From NCBI GenBank assembly GCA_001803565.1, contig MHDQ01000216.1, positions 1 through 6,702 of the forward strand: a DNA stretch of 6,702 nucleotides, given 5' to 3'. Position numbers and translations under genes: made by a program. Of this stretch, positions 93 through 6,391 are shown one piece after another (the first letter of the stretch is position 1; each line of letters begins with the position of its first letter). The DNA is from Nitrospinae bacterium RIFCSPLOWO2_12_FULL_45_22. Its GTDB lineage: Bacteria > 2-12-FULL-45-22. The notes under the pieces are model-generated. The model had not been told where the DNA came from. It saw only the letters and a program-made list of their open reading frames with translations, and did no database searches.

Positions 93-280
93 GTTTTCAA
101 GGGACACTCCCCATCTGTACAAGAACTTATTTCTGGTTTATCTTTTTCGTAGATTCCTTACTCCTATAACCCTGCTATTGATGCTATTCAATGATTGGTA
201 TGCCTGAAAGTACTCTATGATTTGTGTGCTCGAAGGCCCCCTTCGCTCGGGGTTAACGGTGAGCCTACGCTACGACGCTA
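93..280. other. intergenic flank at the 3' end of the cassette array
   Basis: No supported gene on either strand. The stretch holds a C/G-rich hairpin-like run (cccc ttcgct cgggg, about 236-252) and a short cluster of the word acgctac next to the attC core (about 265-285). Neither resembles a complete attC site. It is the junction between the ammonia-lyase gene and the last cassette. Confidence 0.4.
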
Positions 281-338
281 CGCTAACGACCTAAATCAGC
301 GGTGGCTATTAGCCATCCGCTGGATTTTCTTGTTAGCC
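281..338 (-). other. attC recombination site of the RelE-like toxin cassette
   Basis: On the minus strand the site runs from GGCTAAC (338-332) to GTTAGCG (287-281). Between them aaatc-c-agcgg-a-tggct pairs with agccaccgctgattt around an aat loop. The left arm has two extra bases (c and a), like the extrahelical bases that orient single-stranded attC recombination. The TAA stop of the toxin lies inside the first box. This site marks the low-coordinate end of the visible array. Confidence 0.82.
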
Positions 339-593
339 CATCTCTTTAATCATTCTTTCATATTCATCATGAGTGCCAATCCATACCCAAATGAAGTCAT
401 TACCATCTTCAACTGCGAGTGCTCTGTGATTCATTCCAGCTCGCACTGACCAAAACTTACCGACTTTTTTAAAATGAAGGGATGGATGTGAAGGATTAAT
501 TTTAAGTAGCTCGAAGTTCTTTTTCGATATCTTTTGGACAGGTTCTGGTAGGTTCTCAAAGCATTTCCAGAAACGGGCTGTTGTCCGATGCAT
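333..593 (-). CDS. RelE/ParE-superfamily (HigB-like) toxin of a type II TA module
   Basis: This 86-residue protein has the compact basic fold signature of RelE-superfamily mRNA interferases. A basic N-terminal helical half (RTTARFWKCFENLPEPVQ) is followed by the strand set F-K-K-V-G-K-F-W-S-V-R and A-L-A-V-E-D-G-N-D-F-I-W-V-W-I-G-T-H-D-E-Y. The final H-D-E-Y-E-R motif is typical of the subgroup. Family members cleave mRNA at the ribosome and are silenced by the partner antitoxin. The ATG directly abuts the antitoxin stop (TAAATG), so translation is coupled. The stop TAA is embedded in the first box of the downstream attC, a hallmark of a tightly packed cassette. No truncation is visible. The family is clear. 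Ribosome-dependent cleavage is inferred from the family. Confidence 0.85.
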   Translation of the reverse strand: MHRTTARFWKCFENLPEPVQKISKKNFELLKINPSHPSLHFKKVGKFWSVRAGMNHRALAVEDGNDFIWVWIGTHDEYERMIKEMG

Positions 594-794
594 TTAAAGT
601 TCCTTGAGCTTTCCCTTCGCTTTTTCATCAAGGGCTTCCCTGATCAGAAAATCCAGTTTTCCTGCCTCTGAATCGGCTTCAATCTGCCTATCCCATTTTT
701 CCCAATCCTTTTCAGAAAACCACTTTCTAAGGCGAATATATTCCTCTTCTGAGAGGGATTCAATTGCGGACTCGATTTCCTCTGCTTTTGACAT
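594..794 (-). CDS. antitoxin of the RelE-like module
   Basis: A 66-residue acidic, helix-rich protein (MSKAEEIESAIESLSEEEY...) without a classical ribbon-helix-helix or Xre motif. It resembles the small uncharacterised antitoxins found immediately upstream of this RelE subgroup. The L-S-x-E-E-Y-x-x-L-R-x-W-F segment probably forms a helical region, and the C-terminal D-F-L-I-x-E-A-L-x-E-K-A-K-G-K-L-K stretch probably wraps the toxin (inference from family behaviour). The start ATG at 794 is preceded by gaaagggggt about ten bases upstream, nearly identical to the ribosome binding site of the VapB-type gene at 2163. Only 18 bases separate it from the stop of the flavodoxin fragment. No strong own promoter was seen, so it may depend on read-through or on a promoter inside that fragment. 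Confidence 0.78.
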   Translation of the reverse strand: MSKAEEIESAIESLSEEEYIRLRKWFSEKDWEKWDRQIEADSEAGKLDFLIREALDEKAKGKLKEL

Positions 795-812
795 ATCTAA
801 TCTACCCCCTTT

Positions 813-1207
813 CTATAAAGCCTTTAAATTCAGTCCAATATCGTAAGCTTGTTTTAGATATTCTGGTTGTTTTAATACCGATCCTTTCTCCATTATATCA
901 CTAAAGGAAAACATATTTAATATTTTAACACCAAGACAACCCAGAAGGCGATTATAAAATTCCACTAATATTTTAGATTCATCATCCACTTTTTTTTGAT
1001 TCATAGGCGTTATAATAATAGCCTTCTTCCCTGCGGTCAATTCCCTGTTCTGTAAATGATAGTAAAAGAAAAGTCTGTCAAGAAATGTTTTCATCAATCC
1101 CGTAACCCCGCACCAGTAAAGAGGAGAAGCAAGTATCATTAATTCTACAGCGTTGATTTGATTACGGACTTCAGTCATAGCATCTTGAAAATTACATTCG
1201 GATTTTC
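813..1207 (-). pseudogene. flavodoxin-family NAD(P)H/FMN reductase, 5' end lost to an IS insertion
   Basis: The open frame encodes about 130 residues matching the C-terminal two thirds of NADPH-dependent FMN reductase / iron-sulfur flavoprotein-like proteins. It shows C-R-K-S-E-C-N-F-Q-D-A-M (the Cys-containing loop), then L-A-S-P-L-Y-W-C-G-V-T-G-L-M-K-T-F-L-D-R-L (flavin-binding strand and the conserved K-x-F-x-D-R helix), then G-K-K-A-I-I-I-T-P. Full-length members are roughly 180-210 residues and start with a G-S-P-R flavin-phosphate loop, which is absent. The lost 5' end coincides with the end of an IS-like sequence (from 1208). That sequence itself encodes the apparent leading residues L-V-K-N-E-G-C from a TTG codon, with a TAA just upstream. 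It is almost certainly non-functional. Confidence 0.8.
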
Positions 1208-1304
1208 GGCATCCTTCATTTTTGACCAAAAGTAGTTAACAGTTTTAAAGAGCAAAGTATTTTTTATGATATTTGGGTGAAAAAATCAATAGTTCAAAGA
1301 ACTT

Positions 1305-1482
1305 TTAAGAGGGTTGATCTACTAAGAGATCAACCCAATGTTGCTTCAATTTTTTACCAGTAAATATCTCAATGGGGGCCTTACCCTTTCTTTTGCCATC
1401 AACGAATCTTCTATGATTATGATAGAACATGATCAGGTTTAGGGCTTCCTGGGTTATATTGCCTTTGCAGGAGTTGAGGTAA
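1305..1482 (-). pseudogene. transposase, C-terminal fragment
   Basis: About 58 residues are transposase-like: Y-L-N-S-C-K-G-N-I-T-Q-E-A-L-N-L-I-M-F-Y-H-N-H-R-R-F, then G-K-R-K-G-K-A-P-I-E-I-F-T-G-K-K, then W-V-D-L-L. The Y-H-N-x-R and G-K-R-x-G-x-x-P-x-E strings are typical of the tail of DDE-type IS transposases, but I cannot name the IS family. The reading frame stays open upstream to an ATG at 1544. Those extra residues (MYIRLTTASSRPRTAADEAG) are translated attC sequence and not native protein. The catalytic DDE core is lost. The stop at 1305 overlaps a perfect hairpin (1311-1336). Confidence 0.65.
1311..1336. other. perfect 10-bp inverted repeat at the transposase 3' end
   Basis: gggttgatct (1311-1320) and agatcaaccc (1327-1336) are exact reverse complements around a 6-base loop. 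On the minus strand the hairpin spans the last codons of the transposase fragment and is not followed by a T-run. It is therefore more likely a folding or end structure of the IS, or a barrier to impinging transcription, than a classical intrinsic terminator. Confidence 0.5.
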
Positions 1483-1534
1483 CGCCCCGCTTCATCCGCC
1501 GCGGTACGCGGTCGGCTGGAAGCGGTTGTTAGGC
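1477..1534 (-). other. attC recombination site of the VapBC cassette
   Basis: On the minus strand it runs from GCCTAAC (1534-1528) to GTTACCT (1483-1477). The arms ccgcttc-c-agccg-a-ccgcg and cgcggcggatgaagcgg pair around a tac loop, leaving unpaired bases on the left arm. The toxin stop is 18 bases upstream. The trailing box departs from GTTRRRY and its continuation is transposase coding sequence. Confidence 0.82.
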
Positions 1535-1552
1535 GGATATACATTACTTAAT

Positions 1553-1939
1553 TTACCACAGCCGATCAACAGGATAGGCATCAAAGGAAGGATCTGCACT
1601 CAGAACAGGAAGCCGCTCAAACATGGACTGCCCGACCAGCAGCCGATCAAATGGATCACGATGGTGAAAAGGCAGCGTGGACACAACAGTAATATGGCCC
1701 ATCTTGATGTCCAGCAATCCAATGCCGTTAATGCTAAGCTGCTGCGGAATAAGCACATCGAAAGGTTGAGCCAAGCTGAGTTTGCCGAGGCTGAGCTTAA
1801 TGGCCATCTCCCAAAGGCTGGCTATGCTGAATAGCTTCTCGTTACTCCTATCTTCGATCAGCGCCCGCGCCTTCTCACTAAGTTTCGGGCTGCCCATGAT
1901 AAACCAAAGGAAGCTATATGTGTCCAGCAAAAGCTTCAT
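1553..1939 (-). CDS. vapC: VapC-type PIN-domain ribonuclease toxin
   Basis: A 128-residue protein of normal length for the VapC family, whose Mg-dependent PIN nucleases cut tRNA or rRNA. The acidic active-site positions are all visible: D6 in M-K-L-L-L-D-T, E44 in S-L-W-E-M-A-I-K, D95 in H-H-R-D-P-F-D-R-L-L (with D98), and D116 in S-A-D. The L-D-T-Y-S-F-L-W opening and the D-P-F-D-R motif place it in the subgroup paired with Phd/YefM antitoxins. Its ATG overlaps the antitoxin stop by four bases (ATGA), giving translational coupling. It appears intact and potentially active. It is followed 18 bases later by its attC site. The specific RNA target cannot be inferred. Confidence 0.92.
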   Translation of the reverse strand: MKLLLDTYSFLWFIMGSPKLSEKARALIEDRSNEKLFSIASLWEMAIKLSLGKLSLAQPFDVLIPQQLSINGIGLLDIKMGHITVVSTLPFHHRDPFDRLLVGQSMFERLPVLSADPSFDAYPVDRLW

Positions 1940-2163
1940 TTCATGTACTCGTTGAAATCCTCGAGCGGATCATCGAAGTCATCGGACATAGTGACTAACC
2001 CTCTCGCGCTCCCAAACTGGGGGCGCGGCTTGGTCTGCGAAAGCGGCGACAATTTAACGACGGGTCGATCGTCTTTCGTAATGACGACTTCTACCCCACT
2101 CATCGCCTCCTCAATCAAATCAGGCAGATGCATCTTTGCCTCATCGATATTTACTTGATGCAT
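1936..2163 (-). CDS. Phd/YefM-family antitoxin (VapB partner)
   Basis: This 75-residue protein begins M-H-Q-V-N-I-D-E-A-K-M-H-L-P-D-L-I-E-E-A, continues with G-V-E-V-V-I-T-K-D-D-R-P-V-V-K-L, and ends in the acidic tail M-S-D-D-F-D-D-P-L-E-D-F. These are the standard Phd/YefM parts: an N-terminal dimeric DNA-binding fold and a disordered C-terminus that occludes the PIN active site, including the recurrent F-D-D-P-L motif. The family normally represses its own operon. The start at 2163 is supported by gaaagggggtt about nine bases upstream, and an extended -10 like sequence lies at 2208-2213. The four-base overlap with the toxin confirms a two-gene unit. Confidence 0.92.
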   Translation of the reverse strand: MHQVNIDEAKMHLPDLIEEAMSGVEVVITKDDRPVVKLSPLSQTKPRPQFGSARGLVTMSDDFDDPLEDFNEYMK

Positions 2164-2207
2164 GATTTACAACCCCCTTTCTCCTACCTCAAGGATGCTA
2201 CTTCACA

Positions 2208-2216
2208 AGTATAACA
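2208..2216 (-). promoter_or_regulatory. extended -10 promoter candidate for the Phd/VapC cassette
   Basis: On the minus strand, TGT-TATACT provides a TGN-extended -10 about 45 bases before the antitoxin start. No good -35 was found at 17 bases. It lies just inside the cassette after the attC core, consistent with a cassette carrying its own promoter. Confidence 0.45.
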
Positions 2217-2250
2217 CACCAAAAGGAAAGGCACTTCAGCGAATAGTTAG

Positions 2251-2311
2251 GCTAAACCACCTCACGCATCAGCGGCGAGCGAAGCGATTCCGCTGGATGC
2301 GGTTGTTAGGC
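2251..2311 (-). other. attC recombination site of the ParE-like cassette
   Basis: The minus-strand site runs from GCCTAAC (2311-2305) to GTTTAGC (2257-2251). The main stem is gcatc-c-agcgg with ccgctgatgc, with one extra c on the left arm, around a longer variable terminal segment (aatcgcttcgctcg). The TGA stop of the toxin frame directly precedes the first box. A second GTTAGGC on the plus strand (2246-2252) overlaps the far end. Confidence 0.8.
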
Positions 2312-2614
2312 TCACTCATCATCTTGTTCAGGTCTGCCCAGCACATCCATGGCTCCATGGATGACAGCCAGAACGTCAATCTGGTCTGCCTTTATGTGGT
2401 AGATGATACGGAAGGAACCTTCGATCACTTCGCGAATCTGGTCAACATCATATTCGGGGACTCTACGGCCTGAGAAAGGGAATTCGGCAATTTGTTGAGA
2501 TCTTCGGGTAAGCCGATCCACCATGCGCCTGGCATATTCGGGCGAATCCTGAGCAATCTAAGCATAGATGGCGCCAAGATGCCCTTCCGCTGTATCGGTC
2601 CAGTGGACTTTCAT
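2312..2614 (-). pseudogene. ParE/RelE-family toxin interrupted by an amber codon
   Basis: The natural start is ATG at 2614, which overlaps the antitoxin stop as ATGA. The frame reads M-K-V-H-W-T-D-T-A-E-G-H-L-G-A-I-Y-A, then TAG (2558-2560), then I-A-Q-D-S-P-E-Y-A-R-R-M-V-D-R-L and on to the end, 100 codons in all. The family normally has an aromatic or other residue in the A-I-Y-x-Y/F-I position, so a single base change of a TAT, TAC or similar codon to TAG is the simplest explanation. The rest is a good ParE-like toxin: F-P-x-S-G-R-x-V-P-E, I-R-E-V-I-E-G-S-F-R-I-I-Y, I-D-V-L-A-V-I-H-G-A. The first 18 residues form the N-terminal strand and helix start, so re-initiation at ATG 2524 (71 codons) would probably not give an active toxin. 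Its antitoxin is intact. Confidence 0.85.
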
Positions 2615-2799
2615 TCCGGTAAACCGTACTTCGCCCGAACCTCTTTCACGTCTTTGGTCCGACCTGCTTTGCTGTCGGCCAATCCGCGCTCAACCGCCTC
2701 CCGGACGTAAATCTCCCGCATGAGATCATCCCATGTGGCGTTTGGTGGCATCCGATCGATGATCCTGTGGGCTTCTTCCTTTTCCATGATTATTGACAT
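2611..2799 (-). CDS. antitoxin of the ParE-like module
   Basis: I chose the ATG at 2799 (62 residues, M-S-I-I-M-E-K-E-E-A-H) because gaaggaga lies seven bases upstream. An upstream alternative start has no such site. The central segment A-T-W-D-D-L-M-R-E-I-Y-V-R-E-A-V-E-R-G-L-A-D-S and the tail V-K-E-V-R-A-K-Y-G-L-P-E match the short helical antitoxins found with ParE/RelE toxins. It is not a recognisable ribbon-helix-helix protein, and its DNA-binding mode is not evident. The stop overlaps the toxin start. Because the toxin is broken, this may now be an orphan antitoxin. Confidence 0.78.
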   Translation of the reverse strand: MSIIMEKEEAHRIIDRMPPNATWDDLMREIYVREAVERGLADSKAGRTKDVKEVRAKYGLPE

Positions 2800-2825
2800 A
2801 GCATTCTCTCCTTCTTTCTTGTCAT

Positions 2826-2854
2826 AGAATAGCACCAAACTGAGCTGACTTCAA
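2826..2854 (-). promoter_or_regulatory. sigma70-like promoter of the ParE-like cassette
   Basis: On the minus strand, TTGAAG (2854-2849) and TATTCT (2831-2826) are separated by exactly 17 bases. The -10 ends 26 bases before the chosen antitoxin ATG, leaving room for the ribosome binding site. Confidence 0.6.
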
Positions 2855-3105
2855 TTTATCCCAAGCCAGTGGGTAAGAGGGAGGCCGTAGCCACCCCTCC
2901 CCGGAGTATCATTGCCTGGCTCCTTCAACACAGTCCCTCTTCCCCTATATTTGCTGAGCGTTGGGCTACCCTAGCTGCATAGCACTCTGAACGAGAGTTC
3001 GAGCAATGACTTCTGTACAGAGACGAATCCGCACAGGTAGGCTTCGGAGTTATTTCATCACCTCCTCACCGTTTAAAAAACTAAGCGAGAATACCCTGCG
3101 TCTCA
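2855..3105. other. unexplained non-coding leader of the ParE-like cassette
   Basis: About 250 bases between the upstream attC and the promoter hold no supported frame on either strand. It is more G+C-rich than the flanks and contains several short inverted repeats: gggagg with cctccc (2879-2901), ggag with ctcc (about 2904-2924), and actct with agagt around gaacg (about 2986-3000). I could not match it to a known RNA family or to a recognisable IS fragment. Confidence 0.4.
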
Positions 3106-3164
3106 CGGGAACGATTGAGTTCAGCCGCCGCTGTAAAGCGGTCGGCTGGAATGAATTGTTAGGC
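3106..3164 (-). other. attC recombination site of the MazF-like cassette
   Basis: The minus-strand site runs from GCCTAAC (3164-3158) to GTTCCCG (3112-3106). The arm cagccg-a-ccgct pairs with agcggcggctg around a ttac loop, with one unpaired base. An outer paired region, aattcattc with gaactcaatc, flanks it. The opening GCCTAACAATTCATTC closely resembles attC sites of mobile-integron aadA-type cassettes (recalled, not searched). The trailing box does not fit GTTRRRY. Confidence 0.85.
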
Positions 3165-3210
3165 TAATTAGCTATATATATCCTTATATTTCTTACTCTG
3201 TCTGTGGGAG

Positions 3211-4051: not shown

Positions 4052-5023
4052 TTACCAGCGCCAGAGGGCTACACAGAAAACGATACTTAAAGCCAATAAT
4101 AGATTAGAGTAGGCCAGGACTAAGAAAAGTTTCTGATAAGGAAAATTACCCGGCCCGGGAGCCGCTCCCGTTATGCTAGTAAGTACACCTATTATGGGGA
4201 ATTTCTCTAAGGGTTTTTCTCCATGAGGCGATTGAACTAGTGCCTCACCCAGTTCTTTACCGGCTTCATGCCGCTGCATATGGGCTCCAGTTTTCCAGAG
4301 ACGGCTCTGGGACAGGTCATAAACCCTGCCCCACACCGCCACATATATTCCCTTGCCCTCCTTACCAGCAAAAGTTTCCAACTCTTCCAGGGTAAAGATT
4401 TTCTGGACTGGCTGCAGCGGTTGGCCTCCTTTATACCTTTTGAGCCTCGGATTGATAACGAAGGTTACCAGGCTAGCTGAGCATAGCATAAGAAGAAAAA
4501 GGCTACTCTTAACTAACAATATCTCCCCAAAGGTAGTAGAAGTTAATTCCGCTAAAGAATTTAATTTGGCTATGGATAGATAGATACCTGTGCTAACCAG
4601 GATAATAATACAGGCCCAACTGTAGACTATCTCTTTGGTAGGTATACCACCCTCTACCGTACGGGGTGAGAGTATCAGGTGGATAAAAAGGATTGCTCCT
4701 AGCCAGGCTACAGCGGCGGCCAGGTGGAGCCACCCCACTGTCAGTTGGAGGCAACGTTGCCATATATAAGCCCGGGCAGTAGGGATAGGCCAGCGGTGTC
4801 CACGAGTGCGAAATGCCTCACCGGTGCTATTTAATATGCCACCACCGCCTGGGTCTATATGACAGCCCTCACAGGGTTGGTTGGTCTGAATGGCATATTC
4901 AGGATGGCTGGCTGTTTCGACTGGTAGGAATAAAAAAATAGAGGACAGGGTTATTCCAAATATAACCCAGGAACTTCTACGAAAGATTAAACCAACTCCC
5001 TCAATCAATTGTCCTGTACGCAT
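4052..5023 (-). CDS. membrane haem protein: CxxCH motif + CopD-like transmembrane domain + cytochrome b5-like domain
   Basis: The 323-residue protein has a hydrophobic N-terminal segment (about 16-36) that looks like a signal anchor, then C-E-G-C-H at 51-55, a c-type haem motif in a G-G-G-G loop. A CopD/DUF-like helical bundle follows, with G-W-L-H-L-A-A-A-V-A-W-L-G at 97-109 and helices at about 97-119, 131-152 and 166-190. Next comes a soluble cytochrome b5-like haem/steroid-binding domain at about 208-282 (F-T-L-E-E-L, V-Y-D-L-S-Q-S, W-K-T-G-A-H-M-Q-R-H-E-A-G, S-P-H-G). A C-terminal helix lies at about 298-320. Two different haem types on one membrane protein suggest an electron-transfer role at the cytoplasmic membrane, which is an inference. 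The ribosome binding site is weak and two out-of-frame ATGs precede the start, which lies 37 bases from the MITE end. Confidence 0.8.
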   Translation of the reverse strand: MRTGQLIEGVGLIFRRSSWVIFGITLSSIFLFLPVETASHPEYAIQTNQPCEGCHIDPGGGGILNSTGEAFRTRGHRWPIPTARAYIWQRCLQLTVGWLHLAAAVAWLGAILFIHLILSPRTVEGGIPTKEIVYSWACIIILVSTGIYLSIAKLNSLAELTSTTFGEILLVKSSLFLLMLCSASLVTFVINPRLKRYKGGQPLQPVQKIFTLEELETFAGKEGKGIYVAVWGRVYDLSQSRLWKTGAHMQRHEAGKELGEALVQSPHGEKPLEKFPIIGVLTSITGAAPGPGNFPYQKLFLVLAYSNLLLALSIVFCVALWRW

Positions 5024-5060: not shown

Positions 5061-5264
5061 GGCATCCTTCATTTTTCCAATTAACATTTTAACCCATAAG
5101 AGTGTAAGCAAGAGGGGATAAGGAGATAGGAGAGATAATGGAGATAAAGAAAATAGCCTGATATTTCCCTATTCTCATAATCTCCAAATCCCCTTTTCTT
5201 ACACAGGTTAACTACTATGTTCTTCCAAACCGTTAACTACTTTTGGTGAAATATGAAGGATGCC
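5061..5264. mobile_element. 204-bp foldback MITE with terminal inverted repeats
   Basis: The left end ggcatccttcatttttcc and the reverse complement of the right end, ggcatccttcatatttcacc, share their outer 12 bases exactly. Inner arms, gtgtaag with aggggataaggagatag (about 5102-5128), pair imperfectly with the run ending cccctt-ttcttacac (about 5170-5204), so the whole unit can fold back. Possible 3-bp target duplications (att) flank it. It has no coding capacity. Its right end matches the IS remnant at 1208-1240 in 31 of 33 bases. The left half is a polypurine tract with repeated ggagata words. It lies 5 bases from one gene's stop and 37 bases before the next start. Confidence 0.75.
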
Positions 5265-5269
5265 ATTCT

Positions 5270-6391
5270 TTATACTAATTCCAATTGGAGCATCTCTAGA
5301 AAGGCCTCGATGCGGGTACGGAACTGCCCGGCCGGGATAGTAATGTCGAATTCAAGGAAGAGGCTCGGTATGCCTAACTTCTCTTTCAATTCTCGCATTA
5401 TGACCGGGTTATCAAACTCATGGGGGTCACAAAACTTCTGCTGGATAACAATAGCTCCTTGTACCTGGTAATCCTGTGCTAACTGCATTATATGAGGGAG
5501 CCTCAGCCGCGCTGGCCAGTCTTTCTGCGGACAAGGGGGACGTTCCAGGTAGCGGGCAGCAATAGCCCCCAGGCGATCTTCTCCGTTAACCACCTCATTC
5601 CAAAAATAGCGGCTGCCGGTACAATGCTCATCTATCACTACCGTCGAACCAAGCTCTTCAGCCAGTCTTATCATCTCGGTATCATCATCTTCACTGCCTA
5701 TCAGCATCAGCCGGATACCCGGGTCGCGGCTATTATCCCTTTCAGGCAACTCCTGTAAGGTCTCTGCCAGCCACTGGTTATGCTCGGTCTTATCGGCAAA
5801 ATGGCTCGAAAGGACCATCTCCATCGCTTCTACCCCGGAAACAGGAGGTGCTTCCGCCTTGCGCAACTCATAAATCTGCCGCATGAGCCTTCTGTTAGTA
5901 TTGAGCATGTCAATCCCCCGGTCTAAATCTCCTTGAGAGATAGTCTTACCAGTCCACTCTTCCAGAGACTTCATAAAGGCCGCGAACTCCCCTTTAAGAA
6001 AGGGTTTAGCACTGGGTGATTGTACTGTAGCAGGCATAGCTATAAAATAGCTGTAGGATAGCGGGATATGCATTTCCCAGCTTGCAAAAGTCTGCCGGAT
6101 ATGCATACAACTATGCCCTATGGTTATGCCATCTAAATAGTCATAACGGCTCAGGAGGCCCTGGGCTAAACAGTCCCTACAAAAGGGGCAGAACATTGGG
6201 TAGATGTGGGGATCGGTTACATCCTGGGGCTCATGGCTGCCGAGGACCCTTACCGGGAGGATTCCAGCGGCATAAACAATCTCTTCCGGGATATAGGTGC
6301 AGAAATAACCTAATATCTTTCCCCCAGTACGCTCTTTCCATGCCCGGGCATATTGATGTCGGCTCTGTACTACTTCATGAAACTTTTCCAT
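5270..6391 (-). CDS. benzoyl-CoA reductase / 2-hydroxyacyl-CoA dehydratase family subunit (BcrC/HgdC-type)
   Basis: This 373-residue protein is the usual length for the family. It starts A-W-K-E-R-T-G-G-K-I-L-G-Y-F-C-T-Y-I-P-E-E-I-V-Y-A-A-G-I-L-P-V, the diagnostic opening of BcrC/BzdN/HgdC-type subunits that bind a [4Fe-4S] cluster and reduce or dehydrate a CoA thioester using an ATP-driven activator. Candidate cluster cysteines are C68 (with C71 and C74), C95 in H-S-C-M-H, and C321 in Q-Q-K-F-C-D-P-H-E. This C-D-P-H-E-F-D motif and the L-x-x-E-x-D motif near 346-349 are family signatures. The ATG at 6391 follows aggaggtaagct. The partner subunit and activator are not in the window, so the substrate (aromatic or hydroxyacyl-CoA) is undecided. 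The crotonase just upstream supports a CoA-ester pathway. Confidence 0.85.
   Translation of the reverse strand: MEKFHEVVQSRHQYARAWKERTGGKILGYFCTYIPEEIVYAAGILPVRVLGSHEPQDVTDPHIYPMFCPFCRDCLAQGLLSRYDYLDGITIGHSCMHIRQTFASWEMHIPLSYSYFIAMPATVQSPSAKPFLKGEFAAFMKSLEEWTGKTISQGDLDRGIDMLNTNRRLMRQIYELRKAEAPPVSGVEAMEMVLSSHFADKTEHNQWLAETLQELPERDNSRDPGIRLMLIGSEDDDTEMIRLAEELGSTVVIDEHCTGSRYFWNEVVNGEDRLGAIAARYLERPPCPQKDWPARLRLPHIMQLAQDYQVQGAIVIQQKFCDPHEFDNPVIMRELKEKLGIPSLFLEFDITIPAGQFRTRIEAFLEMLQLELV

Follow-up and report, generated by a model that had tools for sequence, protein, structure and literature searches.

The 204-bp element and its copies in the host genome

Two repeated sequences 4 kb apart on one contig raise the question of whether a short foldback at positions 5061–5264 is a MITE, and whether a broken IS nearby represents the autonomous element from which it obtained its ends. 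Both lie in the window analysed here, a stretch of 6,702 bp that makes up a single contig (C216) of a genome bin of 3.67 Mb, 85% complete. The foldback element, which has no assigned strand, is 204 bp long, below the limit of roughly 500 bp expected of MITEs, and contains no transposase reading frame. Its terminal inverted repeats of 17 bases are identical at 16 positions (left GGCATCCTTCATTTTTC; right, as reverse complement, GGCATCCTTCATATTTC). Folded as single-stranded DNA, the element reaches −38 kcal/mol, compared with −17 ± 3.4 kcal/mol for shuffled sequences (z −6.1), through two purine-rich, low-complexity internal arms located approximately at 5102–5149 and 5158–5204 on the plus strand. 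The matched ends and internal pairing arms described in the initial annotation are therefore borne out. The left end occupies 5061–5093 on the plus strand and the right end 5226–5264 on the minus strand, the latter including the subterminal block AAAAGTAGTTAAC. As had also been noted, the outermost part of the right end (5232–5264) matches a second site at 1208–1240 in 31 of 33 bases; no match better than 22/33 arose in 100 first-order Markov shuffles of the window. The similarity between the two sites extends to 55 bp at 85% identity.

A search for copies uncovered a family dispersed through the genome, comprising two near-full copies (C310:6216–6421 and C289:10593–10802, respectively 81% and 79% identical to the window copy in this search), a full but more divergent copy on C143, and many partial or divergent copies. 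The copies on C310 and C289 share 96% identity and, across the whole alignment, each is 77% identical to the window copy, suggesting that the latter is older or belongs to another sub-lineage. We refer to these three as group A; their foldback z scores are about −6 and the internal arms are kept in all of them. Both C310 and C289 are flanked by perfect 8-bp target duplications (AAAAAAAC and CTATTAAA), as are three copies of a related subfamily (C165, CATTTTTA; C25, CGGTTTTT; C213, AAATATTA), and the copy on C232 shows a duplication matching at 7/8 positions. By our own estimate, an 8/8 match between AT-rich flanks would arise by chance in the order of once in 10,000 pairs. The duplication is thus defined as 8 bp, perfect at five paired-end copies and absent at the window copy, where the flanks agree at only 2/8 positions (TAATTATT left versus ATTCTTTA right), matching flanks having been lost, or never having been present.

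There are 21 exact AAAAGTAGTTAAC sites in the 3.67 Mb. A second MITE group, found on more than 10 contigs with some copies ending at contig ends, has the same tips as group A and a different interior (CACCGCAGAG...CTCTGCGGTG palindromes). Among its copies L140–L142 (on C25, C1 and C165) the interiors differ from one another in a way that would fit the capture of other palindromic repeats. Some solo ends occur, as expected of decayed copies, together with solo arm matches that have no ends (C130, C287 and C276). The 33-base repeat is not, overall, a sequence scattered unpaired in unrelated contexts, since paired ends with duplications were found. With its terminal inverted repeats, multiple dispersed copies and 8-bp duplications at five other copies, the element is confirmed as a genuine MITE, ordinary in kind. 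When the MITE and the transposase tail described below were searched for in 98 genomes (its own, one related and a broad sample) and in the phylum, matches were confined to its own genome.

The MITE lies between two minus-strand genes. One (4052–5023) encodes a CopD-like membrane protein that is also weakly cytochrome-b5-like, the other (5270–6391) a 2-hydroxyglutaryl-CoA dehydratase subunit. Its position 5 bp beyond the stop of the dehydratase-like gene, the retention of the arms in 3/3 near-full copies, and the divergence of the window copy with its loss or lack of a duplication could be accommodated if the hairpin were now a domesticated, functional intergenic palindrome, such as a terminator, an RNA-processing signal or a protein-binding site, whose mobility is past. 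We consider this unlikely, because the element contains no terminator-like site, promoter-like matches are at chance level, there is no match in Rfam to a known RNA family, and copies in other contexts carry target duplications.

The IS remnant and its full-length relatives

The second 33-base site was said to lie just past the 3′ end of a transposase gene, and this proved correct. On the minus strand, 1308–1481 encodes a C-terminal transposase fragment of 56 residues (YLNSCKG...LLVDQPS; YLNSCKGNITQEALNLIMFYHNHRRFVDGKRKGKAPIEIFTGKKLKQHWVDLLVDQPS), present as a single copy in its own genome and matching nothing in Pfam, NCBIfam or the plasmids. Beside it, the 55 bp at 1208–1262 (plus strand) constitute the right terminus of the IS, matching the right ends of its relatives. 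The IS end directly adjoins a minus-strand fragment of a flavodoxin/FMN reductase gene (813–1207; matching Pfam FMN_red and Flavodoxin_2 without the start of the profile). Since the IS end abuts this gene, which has no N-terminus, the IS was probably inserted in it. Neither an autonomous copy of the parent nor, by profile search, any other transposase piece, including the N-terminal part, was found in the host genome (85% complete).

A scan of genome contigs identified six loci related to the tail in Thiotrichaceae, Methylococcaceae, Nitrospirae and other metagenome-assembled genomes; 57–69% of the aligned residues are identical. Three of the six lie in open frames of 497–537 residues. The L090 frame lies between GGCTTCCTTCATTTTCCAGTTAACAGTTTGAC (left) and GAACTGTTCACTACTTTTGTACGGAAATGAAGGGAGCC (right), and neither the L090 nor the L089 element has an exact target duplication. 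Both L090 flanks (about 140–176 and 1890–1930) also carry a near-identical repeat of about 35 bp (CAATACTTCGGACAGTTT.TTGAAAAAATAGAGG). An element of this type has at least three left junctions and at least two right ones in a Methylococcaceae bin, all at contig ends, as expected for a collapsed multicopy repeat. When the search was widened to 369 genomes around this bin, it yielded an intact element of 1,813 bp (L134, 968–2780) with a 521-aa open frame and an exact 8-bp duplication, AAGATTTC, on both sides. Judging from the flanks only, it interrupts a candidate MobF-type relaxase gene.

The relatives have an asymmetric pair of ends, GGCNNCCTTCATTTTCCARTTAACAGTTT on the left and GGCNNCCTTCATTTNNNNNAAAAGTAGTNAACAGTTC (reverse complement) on the right. 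When the two ends were aligned separately, the left end of the MITE shared TTTTCC(A/C)(A/G)TTAACA with the left ends of L090, L100, L134 and L089, and its right end shared AAAAGTAGT and AACAGTT with the right ends of L088, L089, L090, L091 and L134. At L092, a more distant element, the tips are different (GGCATGTTTAA). Beyond the common blocks, the IS ends of other taxa differ in sequence, and nothing in the parent elements corresponds to the interior of the MITE. From these alignments, the left end of the MITE corresponds to the left (5′) end in the parent IS family and its right end to the right (3′) end. The parent group can be described as elements of about 1.7–1.8 kb with a DDE transposase of 490–520 aa and 8-bp duplications, bounded by GGC...TTAACAGTTT ends with the AAAAGTAG block on the right only. 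Given the paired-end match and the L134 duplication, the autonomous element and the MITEs have both their ends and their duplication length in common, the shared ends being found with intact elements in other genomes and with a remnant in this one.

These results make it very probable that the element is a non-autonomous MITE whose ends derive from the 1.7–1.8 kb IS and which was moved in trans by a transposase of the 1308–1481 family. The MITE would have retained about 33–40 bp from each IS end and lost the transposase gene, with a purine-rich palindrome in place of that gene giving rise to the foldback. A DDE transposase of this family may then act on it in trans, probably recognizing the terminal GGCATCCTTCA repeat and the subterminal TTAACA(G/C)TTT repeat, and probably making an 8-bp staggered cut at mostly AT-rich targets. 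The suggestion in the initial annotation that the broken IS is the autonomous parent holds for the IS family, on the basis of ends and duplications; for this particular broken copy, membership of the family is what has been established. Likewise, a full-length IS with both ends does exist, as L134 in another genome, and none was located in the 85%-complete host genome.

The MITE might instead have been moved by a different transposase that happens to recognize similar GGC ends and produces 8-bp duplications, such as an ISL3 or IS256 enzyme, the tail at 1308–1481 being a coincidental neighbour. ISL3 and IS256 families also yield duplications of 8 bp or 8–9 bp, and the proposed parent has no autonomous copy in this genome. 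We regard this as improbable, as the similarity reaches beyond the tip, with a separate match for each of the left and right subterminal blocks, and the transposase recurs together with these ends in several unrelated genomes. That the foldback and the 33-bp match reflect chance, or a simple interspersed repeat without transposition, has almost no probability in spite of the low-complexity arms and the solo arm matches, given a match of 31/33 against a chance level of 22/33, and is refuted by the five perfect 8-bp duplications beside paired ends.

Classification of the parent group and the integron boundary

The family of the 1308–1481 transposase was compared with established models. The Pfam model PF01610 (DDE_Tnp_ISL3) scored 20.3 bits on L090, below its cut-off of 23, and gave no match for L089, L092 or L134. 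For the L134 protein, Pfam gave no notable match and the IS256 model only 11.7 bits; the best score with the NCBIfam IS256 model was 15.7 bits against a cut-off of 150. No match to Transposase_mut was found among the close relatives. A distant relative, L135, exceeds the cut-off for both DDE_Tnp_ISL3 (27.3 bits) and Transposase_mut. The alignment retains D-x-FH and E-x-x-N-x-x-(I/L)-R motifs, which we take to be marks of IS256/ISL3/Mutator-type DDE enzymes. An AlphaFold model based on a three-sequence alignment had a mean pLDDT of 51, a quality insufficient for fold comparison. Membership of ISL3 is rejected on the sub-threshold transposase score, though the 8-bp duplication of L134 would fit, and membership of IS256 on a best score far under the cut-off. 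Because the close relatives were compared with both models and passed neither cut-off, the parent should not be filed under either name. Judged by the Pfam and NCBIfam models, no cut-off of which is passed by the close relatives, the IS group appears to be uncatalogued.

Searches of plasmids with the tail alone and of phages with the full-length L090 transposase gave no matches, nor did scans of IMG/VR with the tail, the end pattern and the alignment. With the full-length protein, plasmids returned only Acaryochloris proteins (24–27% identical), these distant relatives being annotated as hypothetical protein on a finished plasmid. Among the matches listed by a literature search for the end sequence, all were unrelated.

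The remnant lies within an integron cassette array that spans 240–3170 of the window. Four minus-strand attC-like sites, starting at about 338, 1534, 2311 and 3164, have CTAACAA and TCCAGC blocks in common, and the cassette genes encode ParE-like, PIN/VapC and PemK/MazF toxin-type proteins with small partner frames (toxin–antitoxin type). No integrase is present on the window contig; elsewhere, the genome encodes two full-length integron integrases that exceed the curated cut-off (C243 and C304). Partial or split integrase matches on C115, C136, C7, C317 and C287 suggest decayed integrons.

The attC-like site at 1481–1534 (minus strand), which aligns with the other three, has a 3′ boundary coincident with the break in the transposase gene: transposase homology starts exactly at the end of the site (1534–1481; G^TTACCTC, window 1475–1485). 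Since the remnant stops exactly at an attC-like site, integron recombination is the likely breaker. Most simply, cassettes would have been joined by an integron integrase to a GTT-type, attG-like site within the transposase gene; attG sites have been named as integrase substrates (PMC12901181). Tentatively, the locus as a whole may combine an unnamed IS group, related to IS256/ISL3 and with its own MITE families, with a local copy whose transposase gene an integron integrase severed at a GTT site when it joined cassettes outside attI.

Comparison with known systems

The pairing of a MITE with an IS is familiar, and what is new here is the IS group together with the integron scar. The locus ties a MITE family of a deeply isolated lineage (two genomes of the phylum compared) to a transposase group that standard models miss, and a profile built from this group would let annotators recognize such elements and their MITEs. 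It also offers a readable example of an IS severed at the edge of an integron attC site, and a MITE with an unusually well-traced parent, of which a remnant lies 4 kb away.

Like other prokaryotic MITEs, for example MITEAba12 (PMC6382973; reviewed in PMC10969869), the element is short and non-coding, with terminal inverted repeats, fixed-length duplications and ends in common with an autonomous IS. It differs in that its parent transposase is missed by Pfam and NCBIfam models, its internal foldback arms are long and its parent persists only as a remnant in the host genome. Members of the ISL3 family (PF01610) have terminal repeats beginning with GG and generate 8-bp duplications. The parent group resembles them in both features and in the sub-threshold match of L090, whereas its close members, including the intact L134, fail the ISL3 model and have their own C-terminal block, GKRKGKAPIEILTG. 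Duplications of 8–9 bp are characteristic of IS256/Mutator (MULE) elements, to which the group is similar in duplication length, the D-x-FH and E-x-x-N-x-x-(I/L)-R motifs, weak IS256 matches and the Transposase_mut match of L135; in contrast to these elements, its close relatives score far under the IS256 cut-off and lack a Transposase_mut match.
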